Assembly (NCBI RefSeq): GCF_021568795.1
Contig: NZ_JAKGUE010000017.1
Location: 1 to 60,995, forward strand
Source of the DNA: Dethiosulfovibrio faecalis
GTDB taxonomy: Bacteria > Synergistota > Synergistia > Synergistales > Dethiosulfovibrionaceae
DNA length: 60,995 nucleotides
Direction of reading: 5' to 3'
A model generated the notes under the pieces. It ran no database searches. It worked only from the letters and a program-made list of their open reading frames with translations, and had not been told where the DNA came from. Both the position numbers and the translations under genes were made by a program. Of this stretch, positions 8,976 to 48,754 are shown in pieces (position 1 is the first letter of the stretch; every line of letters begins with the position of its first letter).

Positions 8976-10958
8976 GTGGAGTTTCTGCTCTTGGGCTCTG
9001 TTGCCCTGTACTTTTTATCCGCTCTGGGTTCTTTGTCTTTCGGAAGGAGGTCTCCGGGAGGATGGATAGTGCCGCTGTCTTCCGTTTTGTCATCTCTCAT
9101 GGCGGTATTGCCCCTTGTCTCCGTCCTGGCCTGTGGATCGATCCTGGATTTCCGTGTCCCATGGGGTTTCCCCGTGGGGTCTTTTCACGTCCGTATGGAT
9201 ATGTTGTCCGGATGGTTCGTCCTCATCCTCTCTCTGGTCTCGCCGGCCGTGGCCCTCTACGGTAGAGGCTATCTCTCGAATCGGGGGGAGACCGTTCGGG
9301 GATCCTGGACCGGCTTTTTTCTCCAGATGCTCTCCGGCGGGATCTTCATGGTCCTGATCTCCTACGACGGAATACTCTTCCTGCTTTCCTGGGAGATCAT
9401 GTCCATGGCGGCCTTTTTTCTGGTGATGTTCGACCATCCCAGGGAGGAGAACAGGAGGGCCGGATGGATCTATCTAGTCGCGACCCACCTGGGAACGGCG
9501 TTTCTGTTCTTCATGTTCTTTCTGCTTGGAGCCAAGGCCGGTTCCTTCGACCTCGACTCCCTCTTAGGTTTGGGAGGTATGGCGAACCTGGTCTTTCCTC
9601 TGGCGATAGTGGGCTTCGGCGCAAAGGCCGGTTTTCTGGGGCTCCATCTGTGGCTTCCAGAGGCCCATCCTGCCGCTCCCTCCCACGGTTCCGCTCTCAT
9701 GAGCGGTGTGATGGTCAAGACCGGGATATACGGGGTCCTGAGGGTCCTTGCGATGGCTCAGGAATGGCCGCAGTGGTGGGGATGGCTGCTTCTGATACTG
9801 GGGGTCGCGTCCGGATTGGGCGGAGTAGTCCACTCGGTGGTCCAGAGGGACCTCAAGAGGCTACTGGCCTTCTGCACTGTGGAGAACATGGGGATAATCC
9901 TCATCGGTCTCGGAATAGGGGTGTTGGGCACGGGATACGACCGTTCCGTCGGGGTTATCGCGATGGGAGGAGCTTTGCTCCACTGTCTCAACCACTCGTT
10001 GTTCAAGGCCGGACTGTTCATGGCGGCGGGGTCGGTGATAAAGACCGCCGGAACCGGCGACATGGACTGGCTGGGGGGACTGTGCCGAACGATGCCGAGG
10101 ACGGGAACGGCCTTTCTCGTCTTGTGCCTCTCGGTGTGCGGATTGCCTCCATTCAACGGCTTTGTGGGAGAGTTCCTGATATACACCGCCTCTTATCTGA
10201 CCGTAGTGCCGGGTGCGATGTCCTCCGTGGGGCTAAGGATAGGCGGCTTCGTCGCCATCTCCTCTCTGGCCCTCGTGGGAGGTCTGGCCGCCATGGCTTT
10301 TTTGAAGGCCTACGGCATGGTGTTCCTGGGCTTTTCCAGGTCCGACGGTGCGGCTAAAGCCGATCCGGGGTCGGACATGGTCGTCCCCATGTCGTCTCTG
10401 ACGATACTCTGTCTGGTTCTGGGGCTGGCCGGTTCTGCGTCTATCCTCATGGCAGGCTCGGTTGCGACGGCGGTGCATCCTCTGGATCTTTCCCTTGGGA
10501 GTCTGACCCCTTTGGCGGAGGTCTCAAAGGCCTATCTGAACGTTTCGTTCATCTCTTTTGTCCTCTTCGGAGCCGGGTTCTGGCTCTGGAGGCTAAGGGC
10601 CCGTCTCCAGAGAGACAGGACCGTGTCCCTGGGGCCCGTGTGGGGATGCGGATACGGCAATCCCTCTGCCAGAATGCAGTACACCGGATCGTCCTTTTCC
10701 CAGCCCGTATTCGCGGCTTTTCGGTCCTTTCTGCGTTCCGAGGTGGCGGGGTCTCTGCCCGAAGGGTATTTTCCCGGGCCGTCCATTTTTCACGCCGATA
10801 CGAGCGGTGTGTTTCACCGATATTTTTACGGGCCCCTTTTCGGAACGGTCATGAAGGTGGTCGGAGAGGCTAGAAAGCTCCATCACGGTGGCACCCACCT
10901 CTATGTGTTCTACGTTTTCGCCGCTCTCGTGGCGGTCCTCCTGTGGAGTCTGAGATGA
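8976..10958 (+). CDS. Ehr-like complex, large antiporter-type membrane subunit (HyfB/NuoL-like)
   Basis: A ~660-residue multi-spanning inner-membrane protein of the Mrp-antiporter / NuoL / HyfB family, expected to carry one proton or sodium channel. The core motifs are clear (GFGAKAGFLGLHLWLPEAHPAAP cut short here, and LLAFCTVENMG). The C-terminus ends in the HyfB-like HHGGTHLYVFYVFAALV. GTG at 8976 is preferred because GGAAGGA lies 10 nt upstream and a TATAAT (8916-8921) would leave a normal leader; an in-frame ATG at 8937 has no ribosome site. It is the first of six tightly packed genes resembling energy-converting-hydrogenase-related complexes. Confidence 0.88.
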   Translation: MEFLLLGSVALYFLSALGSLSFGRRSPGGWIVPLSSVLSSLMAVLPLVSVLACGSILDFRVPWGFPVGSFHVRMDMLSGWFVLILSLVSPAVALYGRGYLSNRGETVRGSWTGFFLQMLSGGIFMVLISYDGILFLLSWEIMSMAAFFLVMFDHPREENRRAGWIYLVATHLGTAFLFFMFFLLGAKAGSFDLDSLLGLGGMANLVFPLAIVGFGAKAGFLGLHLWLPEAHPAAPSHGSALMSGVMVKTGIYGVLRVLAMAQEWPQWWGWLLLILGVASGLGGVVHSVVQRDLKRLLAFCTVENMGIILIGLGIGVLGTGYDRSVGVIAMGGALLHCLNHSLFKAGLFMAAGSVIKTAGTGDMDWLGGLCRTMPRTGTAFLVLCLSVCGLPPFNGFVGEFLIYTASYLTVVPGAMSSVGLRIGGFVAISSLALVGGLAAMAFLKAYGMVFLGFSRSDGAAKADPGSDMVVPMSSLTILCLVLGLAGSASILMAGSVATAVHPLDLSLGSLTPLAEVSKAYLNVSFISFVLFGAGFWLWRLRARLQRDRTVSLGPVWGCGYGNPSARMQYTGSSFSQPVFAAFRSFLRSEVAGSLPEGYFPGPSIFHADTSGVFHRYFYGPLFGTVMKVVGEARKLHHGGTHLYVFYVFAALVAVLLWSLR

Positions 10959-44314: not shown

Positions 44315-45091
44315 TTGAGAGGCCGATCGTCGCTCGTCCTGTCGCTGTTTCTGATATTATCCGCCTTTTCCTCGGAAGGTGCGATACTTCGGGGTAGGGT
44401 CGTATCGGTTTTGGACGGGGATACCTTCGACGTTATGTGCGGTCGCCGAAAACTGAGGGTTCGCTGTCTTTTGATGGATACCCCCGAGCTTCATCACCCC
44501 GTGAGAGGGATCGAGGAGTTCGGTCTAGAGGCCATGAAGGCAGCGGAGTCCATGGTTTTAGGAAAGTCGGTCATTCTGGAGACCGCCGGAGTGGACCGTT
44601 ACGAAAGGACCTTGGCCCACCTGTGGTATCGCGACGGCAAAGAGGACCGGGACCGGCTTCTGTCCGAGGAGCTGTGTCGTCTCGGTCTGGCTCAACCTCT
44701 TCTGATGGGAGACGAGCTGACCTATTCCGACAGGCTGGAGCTGGCCTTGGAGGAGGCCTGCTCGGAAGGCAACGGATTCTGGAGAGTCGCCCGCTCCAGG
44801 CTTTTTTCGCCTGGACAAATAAAATCGGAACTGACCTCCCTGAGGGGGCACTTCGTCGAAGTCAGGTTGAGGGTTTCTCGAATTTCCGACGGCCCTTCCC
44901 TTTGGAGGATATATCCCTCGGAGAGGGGATTCTCCGTCACCGTTAGAAAAGAGGTCTTTCGAGGCGTCTTGCCCGGTTACCTTTCCGAAGGGGCGGAGAT
45001 AAGGGTGGTTGGAAAGGTTATGGCCGGTTATCATGGTGCGGAGATCTCGATCGGCTCGGCCATACAGATCTCTCCTTTTCGCCATATATAG
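44315..45091 (+). CDS. Secreted thermonuclease-like (SNase) protein with extra C-terminal domain
   Basis: A 258-residue protein with a signal peptide (~1-22) and a staphylococcal-nuclease domain (~24-150). VLDGDTFDV holds the Ca2+ Asp, VRCLLMDTPEL the active-site Arg and Glu, and DRYERTLAHLW the second Arg, so it appears catalytically complete. A further ~95 residues (FSPGQIKSELTSL to the end) look like a separate OB-fold-like domain. The TTG start has GGAGGTGA 6 nt upstream. It may be a periplasmic or outer nuclease. The DnaA-box cluster begins at its stop codon. Confidence 0.88.
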   Translation: MRGRSSLVLSLFLILSAFSSEGAILRGRVVSVLDGDTFDVMCGRRKLRVRCLLMDTPELHHPVRGIEEFGLEAMKAAESMVLGKSVILETAGVDRYERTLAHLWYRDGKEDRDRLLSEELCRLGLAQPLLMGDELTYSDRLELALEEACSEGNGFWRVARSRLFSPGQIKSELTSLRGHFVEVRLRVSRISDGPSLWRIYPSERGFSVTVRKEVFRGVLPGYLSEGAEIRVVGKVMAGYHGAEISIGSAIQISPFRHI

Positions 45092-45166
45092 TGGATAACA
45101 TCTTTTCCAACGCTAATCCACGGGGGTTTTCACCGGTTATCCACAGGCTTATCCACTGTATCCACA
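45090..45166. promoter_or_regulatory. Cluster of five DnaA-box-like sites
   Basis: Within 77 bp are: 45090-45098 (reverse strand, TTATCCACT), 45114-45122 (TAATCCACG, 7 of 9), 45137-45145 (TTATCCACA, perfect), 45149-45157 (TTATCCACT) and 45158-45166 (GTATCCACA). Four face the same way, and the last three are packed at 12- and 9-nt steps. It fills the gap between the SNase and AsmA-like genes. It could be oriC, a DnaA titration site or a DnaA-controlled promoter. No dnaA or dnaN gene is in the window. Confidence 0.75.
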
Positions 45167-45184: not shown

Positions 45185-48100
45185 ATGAAAAAAAGGGTAT
45201 ATTTCTCCCTTTTGGCAGGGATTATGCTTTTAACGATATTGGCGTTCAGATGGGGTGGGGCCAAGATCGTCGATCTTATAGATAGGGAACTCCAAGACGG
45301 GGTCGCCTCTATGGGGGGGGCCTCCATGTCGATAGGCTCTATCGACGGGAACCCCTTCAGCGGCTACCGTATCACCTCTCTTCGGCTTATGGACCGGTCG
45401 AGGGTCACTGTTGCGACGATCCGATCCGTCACAGGGAAGCCTGATCTCAAGGCCCTGCTGAGAGGCAGGATCAGGTTGGCCTCCCTTGAGGTCGAGGGAG
45501 TCAGGGTCGAGGAGATGCTGCTTCCCGATCTCGTTTCCGAAACCGAGAGCGGCGGCGGGGAAGTCCCTCTGGAGATAGGTCTGGTGACGGTGTCGGACTG
45601 CGGTCCCCTCTACGGTGGGGGATGGAGTTTGACCGAGCTGAAAGCCGTCGGCGAAGGGGTGTCCTGGAGCGGACACGTCCGGGGATCATGGCGTGAGGAG
45701 CCTCTGGACGGAGATTTCGAGTTCGACCTATCCGAGGGAGTAAAGATTCCGGTCGCGTCTATTCGCGGGGTAGGGGGATCCCTTTCCTTTTCCGGCAGCT
45801 TATCTCCCGGGCTGGACGGTTCGGGCAGCCTGGAGGACCTCTCGATGGAGCGTCTAGGGGCGATGCTGCCATCTCTCGAAGGGATCGGCGTCAAAGGCAG
45901 GGCGAATCTACGGTACCGCCTTTTCGGTACGTTCTCGTCTCCCGTTCTGTCCGGCGATCTGCGCTTCTCCGAGGGCGGTCTGGGAGAGCTGCCTCTGCCC
46001 GACGTTAGGGGAGACGTTGGCTTCTCCGACGGGGAGCTGTCTCTGTCCTCCTGTCGAATCGAGCTGGGAGAGGGAACCCTCTCGGGGGACCTCTCCGTGG
46101 GGCTGGCCTCGGAGGATCGTCCGATCCAGGTCGATCTGGTGGCGACCGACGTCGATTTATCCTCCTTCTCCGGAGAGCTTCGGGATAAGGCGGTTTCGCT
46201 GGACGTAGGCTTTCTATCCATCGCCCTGAAGGGCCCCGCCGCGTCTCCTGTGGGCGAGATGAGCTTTCGGAAGGTCAGGGCCTTGAAAAGCGGCGGAGGC
46301 CTGACCGACATGTCGGGAAAAGTAACTATAAAGGAAGACGGAGGACTCGACGTTCTGGTTCGGTCGCCTTTGGCCGGAGGAAAGCTATCGGTGAAGGGGG
46401 CGGTCGACCTGGACGGCGGATCGGTGGATCTGTCGGCCCTGGCCGATAACGTGGATCTCTCGGAGTTGTCGTCCCTGACGGGGAACCGCCTTTCCGACGT
46501 GGAAGGAAAGATCGGGGCGAATATAAAGGTGTCCGGTCCGCTGGGAGCCCCATCGGCGGAGGGAAGGCTTTTCTCCGATAAGCTCGCTGTTTCCGGTGGG
46601 TCTCTGGGACGGACCGAGGGCAGTTTTCGATACGATAAGGGCCTTTTGAGGATCATCTCCCTCTCGTCGGCGATAGGTTCCGGCAAGGTCACGGGAGGAG
46701 GTACGGTGAACCTCGAAAAGGGACCGTCCGTCCGTCTCGACGGAAAGCTTTCCGGTATCTCCGGGGCGTCGCTGGAAAAGGCTTTCCCCGCCGCAGGAGG
46801 GAATATGCCCGAAGGCGTCCTGGATGGCAGCTGGTCCTATCGATCCAGTGGAAGCGGAGGGCTTTTCAGCATGGACGTCAGGTCCGGCAAACTAACCTTC
46901 GTAGAGGTATTCCCCCTCGTTGGATTCGAGGCCAAGATCTTCGTCGAAGGAAACAGGCTGAAGATCGATAAGGTGGAGGCGGGGCTCTACGGAGGAAGGC
47001 TTTCCCTGTCCGGGGCTGTCCCCCTGGCGGCAGGGGATATGGCGATCAAAGGATCCCTGTCCGGTCTGGACGGTTCGGCCCTCTTCGGAGCTATGGGAGG
47101 CCTGGAGGCTGCGGGCAAGGTCGACGGCGAATTCTCCCTGTCCGGCTCCTACTCGTCTCCCAGGTTGGATTTCTCCGCCCGGACCGACAGGCTGGACCTG
47201 GAGAGCCTTCCCGTGGAGAAGCTGTCTCTTTCGTTGAAGAGCGGCAAGGGTCGGATAGACGCCTCTCTCAATGGACTGATGGGCGGTTTTCCTCTCAAGG
47301 GCGGCGGATGGATTAGGCTGCCCTCTGGAAAGGATACCGGCGCCCTCGACCTGGAGGCCTCTGTGAGGGGACTGGACATAAGGAGCATAATGCCGGAGGA
47401 CATCGAGATGGGAGGGACCCTTTTCGGCAAGATTCACCTTCTAGGCCCTCTTAACAGGCCCAAGCTGTACGCACAGGGGAAGGCCCCCAGGCTTCAGGTG
47501 GGTAACATGGCCTTCGCCAGCGTCGACATCGGAGGATTCCTGGGCAGGGACGACGACCTCTCCTTCCAGGCCTCCAGCCTCTTCGGAGACCGTCGGGTGC
47601 AGGCCTCCTGCGACGTCAAGCCCTCAGAGTCGGGCTGGGGACTGGAGTTCGACGCCTCCGGAGGCGACATCCTTCTCTCCTCGCTGGTTCCGAACCTTGA
47701 GGGAGTCGTGGACGGCCGAGTCGACCTCGATATGTCCGGTTCCTGGAAAGACGGAAAGGTCTCGGCCTCGGGCAGTGCCTCGTCCCGAGAGCTGTCTACC
47801 CACGGGGTGAAGGTCAGGTCGGTCTCTCTGCCTTTGAAGGTGGATGGTCCCTCCCTCAAAGTATCCGGCGGAAAGGCCGAGATGTACGGGGGCAGGGGAG
47901 ACGTGGATCTATCGGTGGACCTGACTAGAAATTCCTGGAAGGGCAAGGTCGAGGTGAAGGACATAGACGTGAAACCCCTTCTGGAGGACGGGGCCGATCT
48001 TCCCGGGATCATCTCCGGCGACGCCGACCTGAAACTGGACCTATCCGGTGTCGCGGGGAGAGCCTTTCTCTTCAACGTAACCGGCTTTCTCAGGGGCAGG

Positions 48101-48754
48101 TCGGTGGAGCTTATCGACTTCTCCGTGCTGAACCCGGTCACCAAAGGAGCCCCTCTCAGGATCAAGGACCTGGCGGCTAGCTTCAACATAGACGGTCAGG
48201 AACTGTACATACTTCCAGGGAGCAGAGCCTCCGCCTGGCCCGGCGACGATTTTTACCGATACGTCGACGTCAGCGGATCGGCCTGGAGAAGCGAGTCCGA
48301 CTCCATGGGAGATAAAAGAGATCCGCTGGACCTGAGCTGTTCCGGAGAGGTTAACCTGAAGGCCCTCAACGCCCTTCTAGGGGCGATGAGAAGCCTTCTG
48401 GAGGCCACCATAGAGAACATCAAGGATCCCAGATCACTGGCTACGGACCTTCTGGCGGGAATAGTCGGGGGATACTCGGCCAAGGATTTCAGAGAGATAA
48501 GCCTTCACGTGGGAGGAGGCTGGGATTCTCCGGTCATATCGAACCTCAAAATCGGTGAGAAAGGCGGCCTCGGAGGACTCGGAACCGGCCTCCCGACCAA
48601 CGGAAAGGGCGGAGAGACCAAGATAAGGATACAGATCGACATACCCACCGGAGAGGGAGGAGGAGAGGAGGACGACGCCGGAGATCAGGTGAAGCAGCAG
48701 ATCCTGGAGAACCTCCTCAAACAGGTCATAGGCGACCAGGATACCACGGAGTAA
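45185..48754 (+). CDS. AsmA/TamB-like large envelope protein
   Basis: A 1189-residue protein with one N-terminal membrane anchor (~7-22) and a very long region of repeated amphipathic beta segments, rich in Gly, Ser and Leu (pattern GxLSxSG, as in FSLSGSYSSPRLDFSA). That is the groove-forming architecture of AsmA, TamB and YhdP proteins that bridge inner and outer membrane and move lipids or help outer-membrane assembly. The C-terminal ~40 residues are acidic (GEGGGEEDDAGDQV). TTGGAGG lies 7 nt before the ATG. It implies a two-membrane envelope. A DnaA-box cluster sits directly upstream. Confidence 0.82.
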   Translation: MKKRVYFSLLAGIMLLTILAFRWGGAKIVDLIDRELQDGVASMGGASMSIGSIDGNPFSGYRITSLRLMDRSRVTVATIRSVTGKPDLKALLRGRIRLASLEVEGVRVEEMLLPDLVSETESGGGEVPLEIGLVTVSDCGPLYGGGWSLTELKAVGEGVSWSGHVRGSWREEPLDGDFEFDLSEGVKIPVASIRGVGGSLSFSGSLSPGLDGSGSLEDLSMERLGAMLPSLEGIGVKGRANLRYRLFGTFSSPVLSGDLRFSEGGLGELPLPDVRGDVGFSDGELSLSSCRIELGEGTLSGDLSVGLASEDRPIQVDLVATDVDLSSFSGELRDKAVSLDVGFLSIALKGPAASPVGEMSFRKVRALKSGGGLTDMSGKVTIKEDGGLDVLVRSPLAGGKLSVKGAVDLDGGSVDLSALADNVDLSELSSLTGNRLSDVEGKIGANIKVSGPLGAPSAEGRLFSDKLAVSGGSLGRTEGSFRYDKGLLRIISLSSAIGSGKVTGGGTVNLEKGPSVRLDGKLSGISGASLEKAFPAAGGNMPEGVLDGSWSYRSSGSGGLFSMDVRSGKLTFVEVFPLVGFEAKIFVEGNRLKIDKVEAGLYGGRLSLSGAVPLAAGDMAIKGSLSGLDGSALFGAMGGLEAAGKVDGEFSLSGSYSSPRLDFSARTDRLDLESLPVEKLSLSLKSGKGRIDASLNGLMGGFPLKGGGWIRLPSGKDTGALDLEASVRGLDIRSIMPEDIEMGGTLFGKIHLLGPLNRPKLYAQGKAPRLQVGNMAFASVDIGGFLGRDDDLSFQASSLFGDRRVQASCDVKPSESGWGLEFDASGGDILLSSLVPNLEGVVDGRVDLDMSGSWKDGKVSASGSASSRELSTHGVKVRSVSLPLKVDGPSLKVSGGKAEMYGGRGDVDLSVDLTRNSWKGKVEVKDIDVKPLLEDGADLPGIISGDADLKLDLSGVAGRAFLFNVTGFLRGRSVELIDFSVLNPVTKGAPLRIKDLAASFNIDGQELYILPGSRASAWPGDDFYRYVDVSGSAWRSESDSMGDKRDPLDLSCSGEVNLKALNALLGAMRSLLEATIENIKDPRSLATDLLAGIVGGYSAKDFREISLHVGGGWDSPVISNLKIGEKGGLGGLGTGLPTNGKGGETKIRIQIDIPTGEGGGEEDDAGDQVKQQILENLLKQVIGDQDTTE

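Follow-up and report, generated by a model that had tools for sequence, protein, structure and literature searches.

The gap between two protein-coding genes of Dethiosulfovibrio faecalis holds a cluster of five DnaA boxes that is not random, that recurs across the order Synergistales with fixed spacing, and that is independent of any one neighbouring gene. Here, we analyse this cluster in a contig of 60,995 nucleotides (the window), which is the whole of contig C17 in a draft genome of 2.67 Mb and 43 contigs. The cluster is not an origin of replication in this genus. We consider it probable (about 0.6) that it is a dedicated DnaA element, distinct from the origin but near it, acting as a sink or as a regulatory platform that restrains re-initiation. 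We infer the binding of DnaA from the identity of the boxes and from their likeness to the boxes beside dnaA; the control would presumably be negative in sign, and its role would lie in the cell cycle.

To our knowledge, the restraint of DnaA is poorly known outside of E. coli and B. subtilis. A search of the literature, mostly of open papers, found nothing on a replication-control site or on DnaA boxes in Synergistota, and no results there on DnaA binding, replication timing, or deletion. The array is a short, exactly defined, and deeply conserved candidate DnaA site in Synergistales. With it, the choice between titration and active switching of DnaA becomes testable in a third lineage.

A five-box array between two genes

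An earlier note on this DNA had described, at 45090-45166, one perfect box, three that match at eight of nine positions, and one that matches at seven, all within 77 bp. Four of these were said to point in the same direction, with the last three stepped by 12 and 9 nt. Every position was confirmed exactly, as were the directions and the steps (Table 1). Pfam matched both of the flanking genes to the families that the note had named, SNase and AsmA. The gap spans 93 bp from the SNase stop codon (45089-45091) to the ATG of the AsmA-family gene. Box 1 and that stop codon have 2 bp in common, and the AsmA start codon follows the fifth box by 18 bp.

Table 1. The five boxes, one conserved segment, and the flanking genes, in window coordinates
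Feature	Position	Strand	Description
SNase-like gene (thermonuclease fold)	44315..45091	+	Pfam SNase, E=2.4e-15
DnaA box 1	45090..45098	-	TTATCCACT, inverted, at most 1 mismatch
Non-box segment	45107..45113	+	CCAACGC, invariant in 7-genome footprint
DnaA box 2	45114..45122	+	TAATCCACG, 7/9
DnaA box 3	45137..45145	+	TTATCCACA, perfect
DnaA box 4	45149..45157	+	TTATCCACT; stepped 12 bp from box 3, as in several families
DnaA box 5	45158..45166	+	GTATCCACA; stepped 9 bp from box 4, where other families have 8 bp
AsmA-family (AsmA/DUF748-like) gene	45185..48754	+	Pfam AsmA, E=3.2e-07, 30.0 bits against a cut-off of 29.8

The window as a whole has 17 boxes at no more than one mismatch, where 7.4 are expected. 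Four such boxes within 77 bp did not arise once when 12 Mb of sequence was simulated with a Markov model; a genome of 2.67 Mb is expected to contain about 1e-4 such groups. This bears out the view, also in the earlier note, that chance is very unlikely to have produced the cluster. Further, a paired motif, TTATCCACN{1,30}TATCCAC, is found at just two places in the genome. One lies on contig C3, upstream of dnaA; the other is the gap between the SNase and AsmA genes. An inverted-pair motif, in a scan of the whole genome, is found at the dnaA locus only.

Conservation within the genus and across the order

The note had proposed that the gap be compared in relatives, and this comparison came out strongly positive both in the genus and, with a matching array, across the order. 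A 96-bp segment of the gap differs from its counterpart in two congeners, G001 and G005, at 2 and 3 positions, respectively. Fourfold-degenerate sites in the AsmA gene differ by 18% and 26% in the same two comparisons (p=3e-6 and 1e-7 against the gap), and those in the SNase gene differ by 12% and 18% (p=3e-3 and 3e-4). Judged by these comparisons, the gap is under purifying selection.

When seven congeners are aligned, the boxes and their short flanks are nearly invariant, while the sequence beyond them cannot be aligned in the more distant congeners. Box 1 with its flank reads CATATRTAGTGGATAAC throughout the genus; this segment, TCCAACGCTAATYCAC, and CACC are shared by all seven. The parts of this island that lie outside of the boxes are CATATRTA, CCAACGC, and CACC. 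Three congeners (G002, G003, and G004) have a different gene in place of the SNase gene, and nevertheless retain all five boxes at unchanged offsets of 0 (minus strand), 24, 47, 59, and 68. In these three, the second box is TAATCCACA, which matches at eight of nine positions; the fifth box is ATATCCACA in every congener of the focal genome except G001. Such conservation argues that the cluster is functional.

Two segments, CCAACGC and CATATATA (45083-45090), are invariant or nearly so in the seven congeners. They may be binding sites for another protein, or part of a promoter. A promoter scan of the gap found no good promoter.

For the order as a whole, 151 Synergistales genomes were searched with the three-box motif TCCACN{4,8}TATCCACN{2,5}TCCAC, with the reversed motif as a control. 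The motif is present in 53 of these genomes; the control gave no match. The loci were classified by tblastn, with inspection covering genomes other than G108, G142, and G146, and the genes were named from Pfam. Nearly all of the inspected matches lie either at dnaA or in a block having the order parB-parA-rsmG(GidB)-SNase-[boxes]-AsmA, with at least one of these neighbours present. The SNase gene is the usual upstream neighbour and the AsmA gene is the usual downstream neighbour. The boxes directly follow the SNase gene even in families where the SNase protein is only 32-40% identical.

Outside of the focal genus, the array has plus-strand boxes at -62, -12, 0, and +8 relative to its core (that is, steps of 50, 12, and 8 bp), sometimes with a fifth box at -80 or -81. 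Taking one locus per genus, the -62 box is placed exactly in 10 of 13 loci, as is the -12 box; in 20,000 randomisations, the highest count was 5. The 41-bp spacer between these two boxes, in contrast, cannot be aligned, and its identity (approximately 0.33) is like that of random sequence, versus approximately 0.9 for the boxes. Thus, it is the length of the spacer that is held, not its sequence. All of the boxes are in tandem in most families. The focal genus keeps the right-hand trio (with steps of 12 and 9), and has its left-hand box inverted and at -59.

As a further, negative control, a scan of genome contigs that yielded mostly SNase genes of other groups was used, giving 74 SNase loci from outside the order. 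Downstream of the SNase gene, 68 of these have no box and 6 have one; none has two or more. The element is not universal in the order, since the array was not found at the SNase position in the examined loci of family f9 (Acetomicrobium; L013-L015 and L183), nor in the single f4 locus examined (L022). Every f4 and f9 motif match that was inspected lies at dnaA.

The array is also found away from its usual neighbours. In genus g3 of family f1 (G008, G010, and G013), a similar triple directly follows parB, with neither SNase nor AsmA. One genome, G058, carries a four-box array with the 50-12-8 spacing but none of the neighbours of the block, and without SNase or AsmA within 4 kb. Matches in G006 (contig C6), G111, and G115 (contig C99) are isolated and chance-like.

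Several smaller observations accompany these comparisons. In two of the g3 genomes, the box triple and a second pair of boxes lie in and after an ORF of 151-154 amino acids, between parB and a HIT-domain gene (L142:3999-4397 in G010; L143:4045-4444 in G008). In family f10, two perfect parS sites (GTTTCACGTGAAAC) adjoin the cluster (L020:2334-2379 in G022; L021:1322-1364 in G031), a sequence arrangement that suggests a link between the cluster and ParABS. The focal genome has two ParB-family genes, one at C3:154912 (8.6 kb from dnaA) and one at C2:182890. No match to GTTTCACGTGAAAC at one mismatch or fewer was found anywhere in its assembly. The parS link of f10 therefore could not be extended to the focal genome, and a parS-linked site there was rejected, despite a ParB gene near dnaA. 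The genus may be using a divergent parS.

Candidate roles in the control of DnaA

How might such an element work? DnaA would occupy the five boxes as an ordered array, made of the tight right-hand trio (with steps of 12 and 8-9 bp) together with one or two left-hand boxes some 50 bp away. The element would be copied soon after oriC fires, and would then absorb newly made DnaA or promote its conversion to an inactive form. By way of this early duplication, re-initiation would be restrained, as it is by the clusters of B. subtilis and by datA of E. coli. Of the three readings that the earlier note had offered, a DnaA reservoir is the best fit to what we find, with the binding of DnaA presumed. 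Here, a subtlety enters. A simple sink needs no fixed spacing. The geometry suggests a more structured mode of action than titration.

A second possibility is transcriptional control by DnaA, in which the boxes would repress the AsmA-family gene or time its expression, or would do so for the SNase gene. In other bacteria, DnaA does regulate transcription (PMC4447404). In the focal genus, the boxes lie directly against the ribosome-binding site of AsmA, and most families have AsmA as the next gene downstream. If this were the role of the boxes, they would always be found upstream of AsmA. They are not. In family f5 and in some f6 genomes, the boxes are followed by a gene other than AsmA, and AsmA is likewise not adjacent in the g3 genomes and in G058. 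Even where AsmA is present, it may be as close to the boxes as 18 bp or as far away as about 170 bp or more, and the gap lacks a detectable good promoter. The boxes remain without SNase, with AsmA displaced, or with only parB, which makes it unlikely that control of AsmA is their main role. That control, which the earlier note had put forward, does not hold as the whole story, and is better kept as a lesser or secondary role; as the principal explanation we regard it as improbable. In families f5 to f7, the gene that follows the boxes looks like a P5C dehydrogenase, judged from its first residues only.

The DnaA element that we prefer can be compared with those already studied. The DnaA-box clusters (DBCs) of B. 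subtilis are likewise groups of boxes outside of oriC and near the origin, as "oriC-proximal" in the title of Okumura et al. (2012) indicates. Deleting all six causes early initiation, according to two later papers (PMC5295017, PMC13220808). These six contrast with the one cluster away from dnaA in the regions scanned of G001, G034, and G018. The geometry of the Synergistales array is fixed (50-12-8) and order-wide. YabA, in contrast to B. subtilis, is absent from the focal genome. In E. coli, chromosomal boxes titrate DnaA and are enriched near oriC (PMC12371093).

A third possibility, also suggested by the fixed geometry, is catalysis. Fixed geometry suggests an ordered complex, and this keeps among the rivals an element that acts on the DnaA cycle itself, with its spacing set by a specific DnaA oligomer and its effect being either inactivation (as with datA) or reactivation (as with DARS). 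Exact spacing around a spacer of free sequence, and boxes in tandem in most families, are what such an oligomer would lead one to expect. datA stimulates the hydrolysis of DnaA-ATP. Like the array, it has five DnaA boxes outside of oriC near the origin, and it is a negative regulator of initiation. It acts on the nucleotide state of DnaA with IHF, however, and is about 1 kb long (PMC5295017), against 77 bp here. The focal genome has one protein of the HU/IHF family. Thus, an IHF alpha/beta pair, and with it an IHF dependence in the style of datA, is not evident.

DARS1 and DARS2 of E. coli also act on the nucleotide state of DnaA, and they resemble the array in being short and intergenic and in carrying a few DnaA boxes whose arrangement is fixed. 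Their core requires boxes I and II to be head-to-head, and DARS2 needs both IHF and Fis (PMC8682772). The boxes here are in tandem in most families, and the one inverted box of the focal genus points away from the others. Identity with DARS was therefore rejected, and a catalytic element of either kind seems to us unlikely.

If the preferred DnaA element is pressed to a more specific form, we might tentatively picture an ancestral, order-wide element of fixed nucleoprotein geometry (-62, -12, 0, and +8, with the spacer free) that was originally tied to parAB-rsmG. It would inactivate DnaA, or sequester it in an orderly way, without IHF or YabA, and would be built unlike datA, DARS, or the B. 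subtilis clusters. We judge this version to be less likely than not.

The cluster is not the replication origin

The earlier note had also entertained oriC at this site. The focal genome has a single dnaA (C3:146291), on a different contig from the cluster. Its locus (L001, G000 C3:144791-148276) has 18 boxes at one mismatch or fewer in 3.5 kb, clustered on both sides of the gene in the bipartite layout known from B. subtilis. A stretch of 82% AT lies upstream of the gene, at a distance of about 270 bp. The note had suggested that the AT-rich first codons of AsmA might serve as the unwinding region; the AT maximum per 40 bp at the cluster is 68%, against that 82% upstream of dnaA, and gives the suggestion no support.

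Because the focal genome is split into too many pieces for an analysis of skew, stretches of relatives (G001, G018, G022, and G034) were used instead, the first being of the same genus and having a main contig of 2.57 Mb. In G001, both GC skew and keto skew stay mostly below zero until about 1.00 Mb; beyond this point, as far as about 2.2 Mb, they are mostly positive. Here, dnaA lies at 0.996 Mb, and the cluster lies at 1.150 Mb, well inside of the positive arm and 154 kb from dnaA and the switch. The switch in skew, which the note had named as the check on oriC, is thus not at the cluster. It is likewise at dnaA in G018, a member of another family. The skew of G034 is noisy, and that of G022 is ambiguous because its cluster and dnaA are only 11 kb apart. 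With the switch at dnaA, and with dnaA on another contig amid dense boxes, an origin at the cluster is ruled out.

Where both are on one contig, the cluster is 11-154 kb from dnaA; in G004, the distance would be about 220 kb if the contig is circular. Near the origin, the only groups of three or more boxes are those at the cluster site and those at dnaA or immediately next to it (400 kb scanned in G001, 400 kb in G034, and 240 kb in G018). In G022, an extra four-box group, with one perfect box, lies 20 kb from dnaA on the side opposite the cluster (C1:20435-20518, in L106).

It might still be argued that the cluster is a remnant or secondary origin module, a part of an ancestral origin next to rsmG-parAB that rearrangement split from dnaA. 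The cluster shares with the oriC that flanks dnaA in the same genome the double box TTATCCAC-N-TATCCACA (where N is one or two bases) and a similar density of boxes. The SNase-boxes-AsmA block is about 9 kb from dnaA in G066, adjoins rsmG-parA-parB in many genomes, and is itself adjoined by parS sites in G022 and G031. The dnaA side differs, however, in its module, which across the order has steps of 13 and 8 (12 and 8 at the cluster) and frequently includes an inverted box at +32 to +34, in its AT-rich stretch in the focal genome, and in having the skew switch. Purifying selection after relocation also speaks against a relic. We therefore hold this account to be very unlikely.

A chance cluster, or an artefact of composition, can be set aside with near certainty, for although isolated 9-mers like TTATCCACA are common (539 in the genome at one mismatch or fewer), chance is excluded by the simulation, the reversed-motif control, the SNase loci of other groups, and conservation across families. 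Elsewhere in the window, at 9878-9897, two minus-strand 9-mers that resemble boxes (TTCTCCACA and TTATCCCCA) lie 11 bp apart inside of a predicted ORF, and this pair is probably due to chance.
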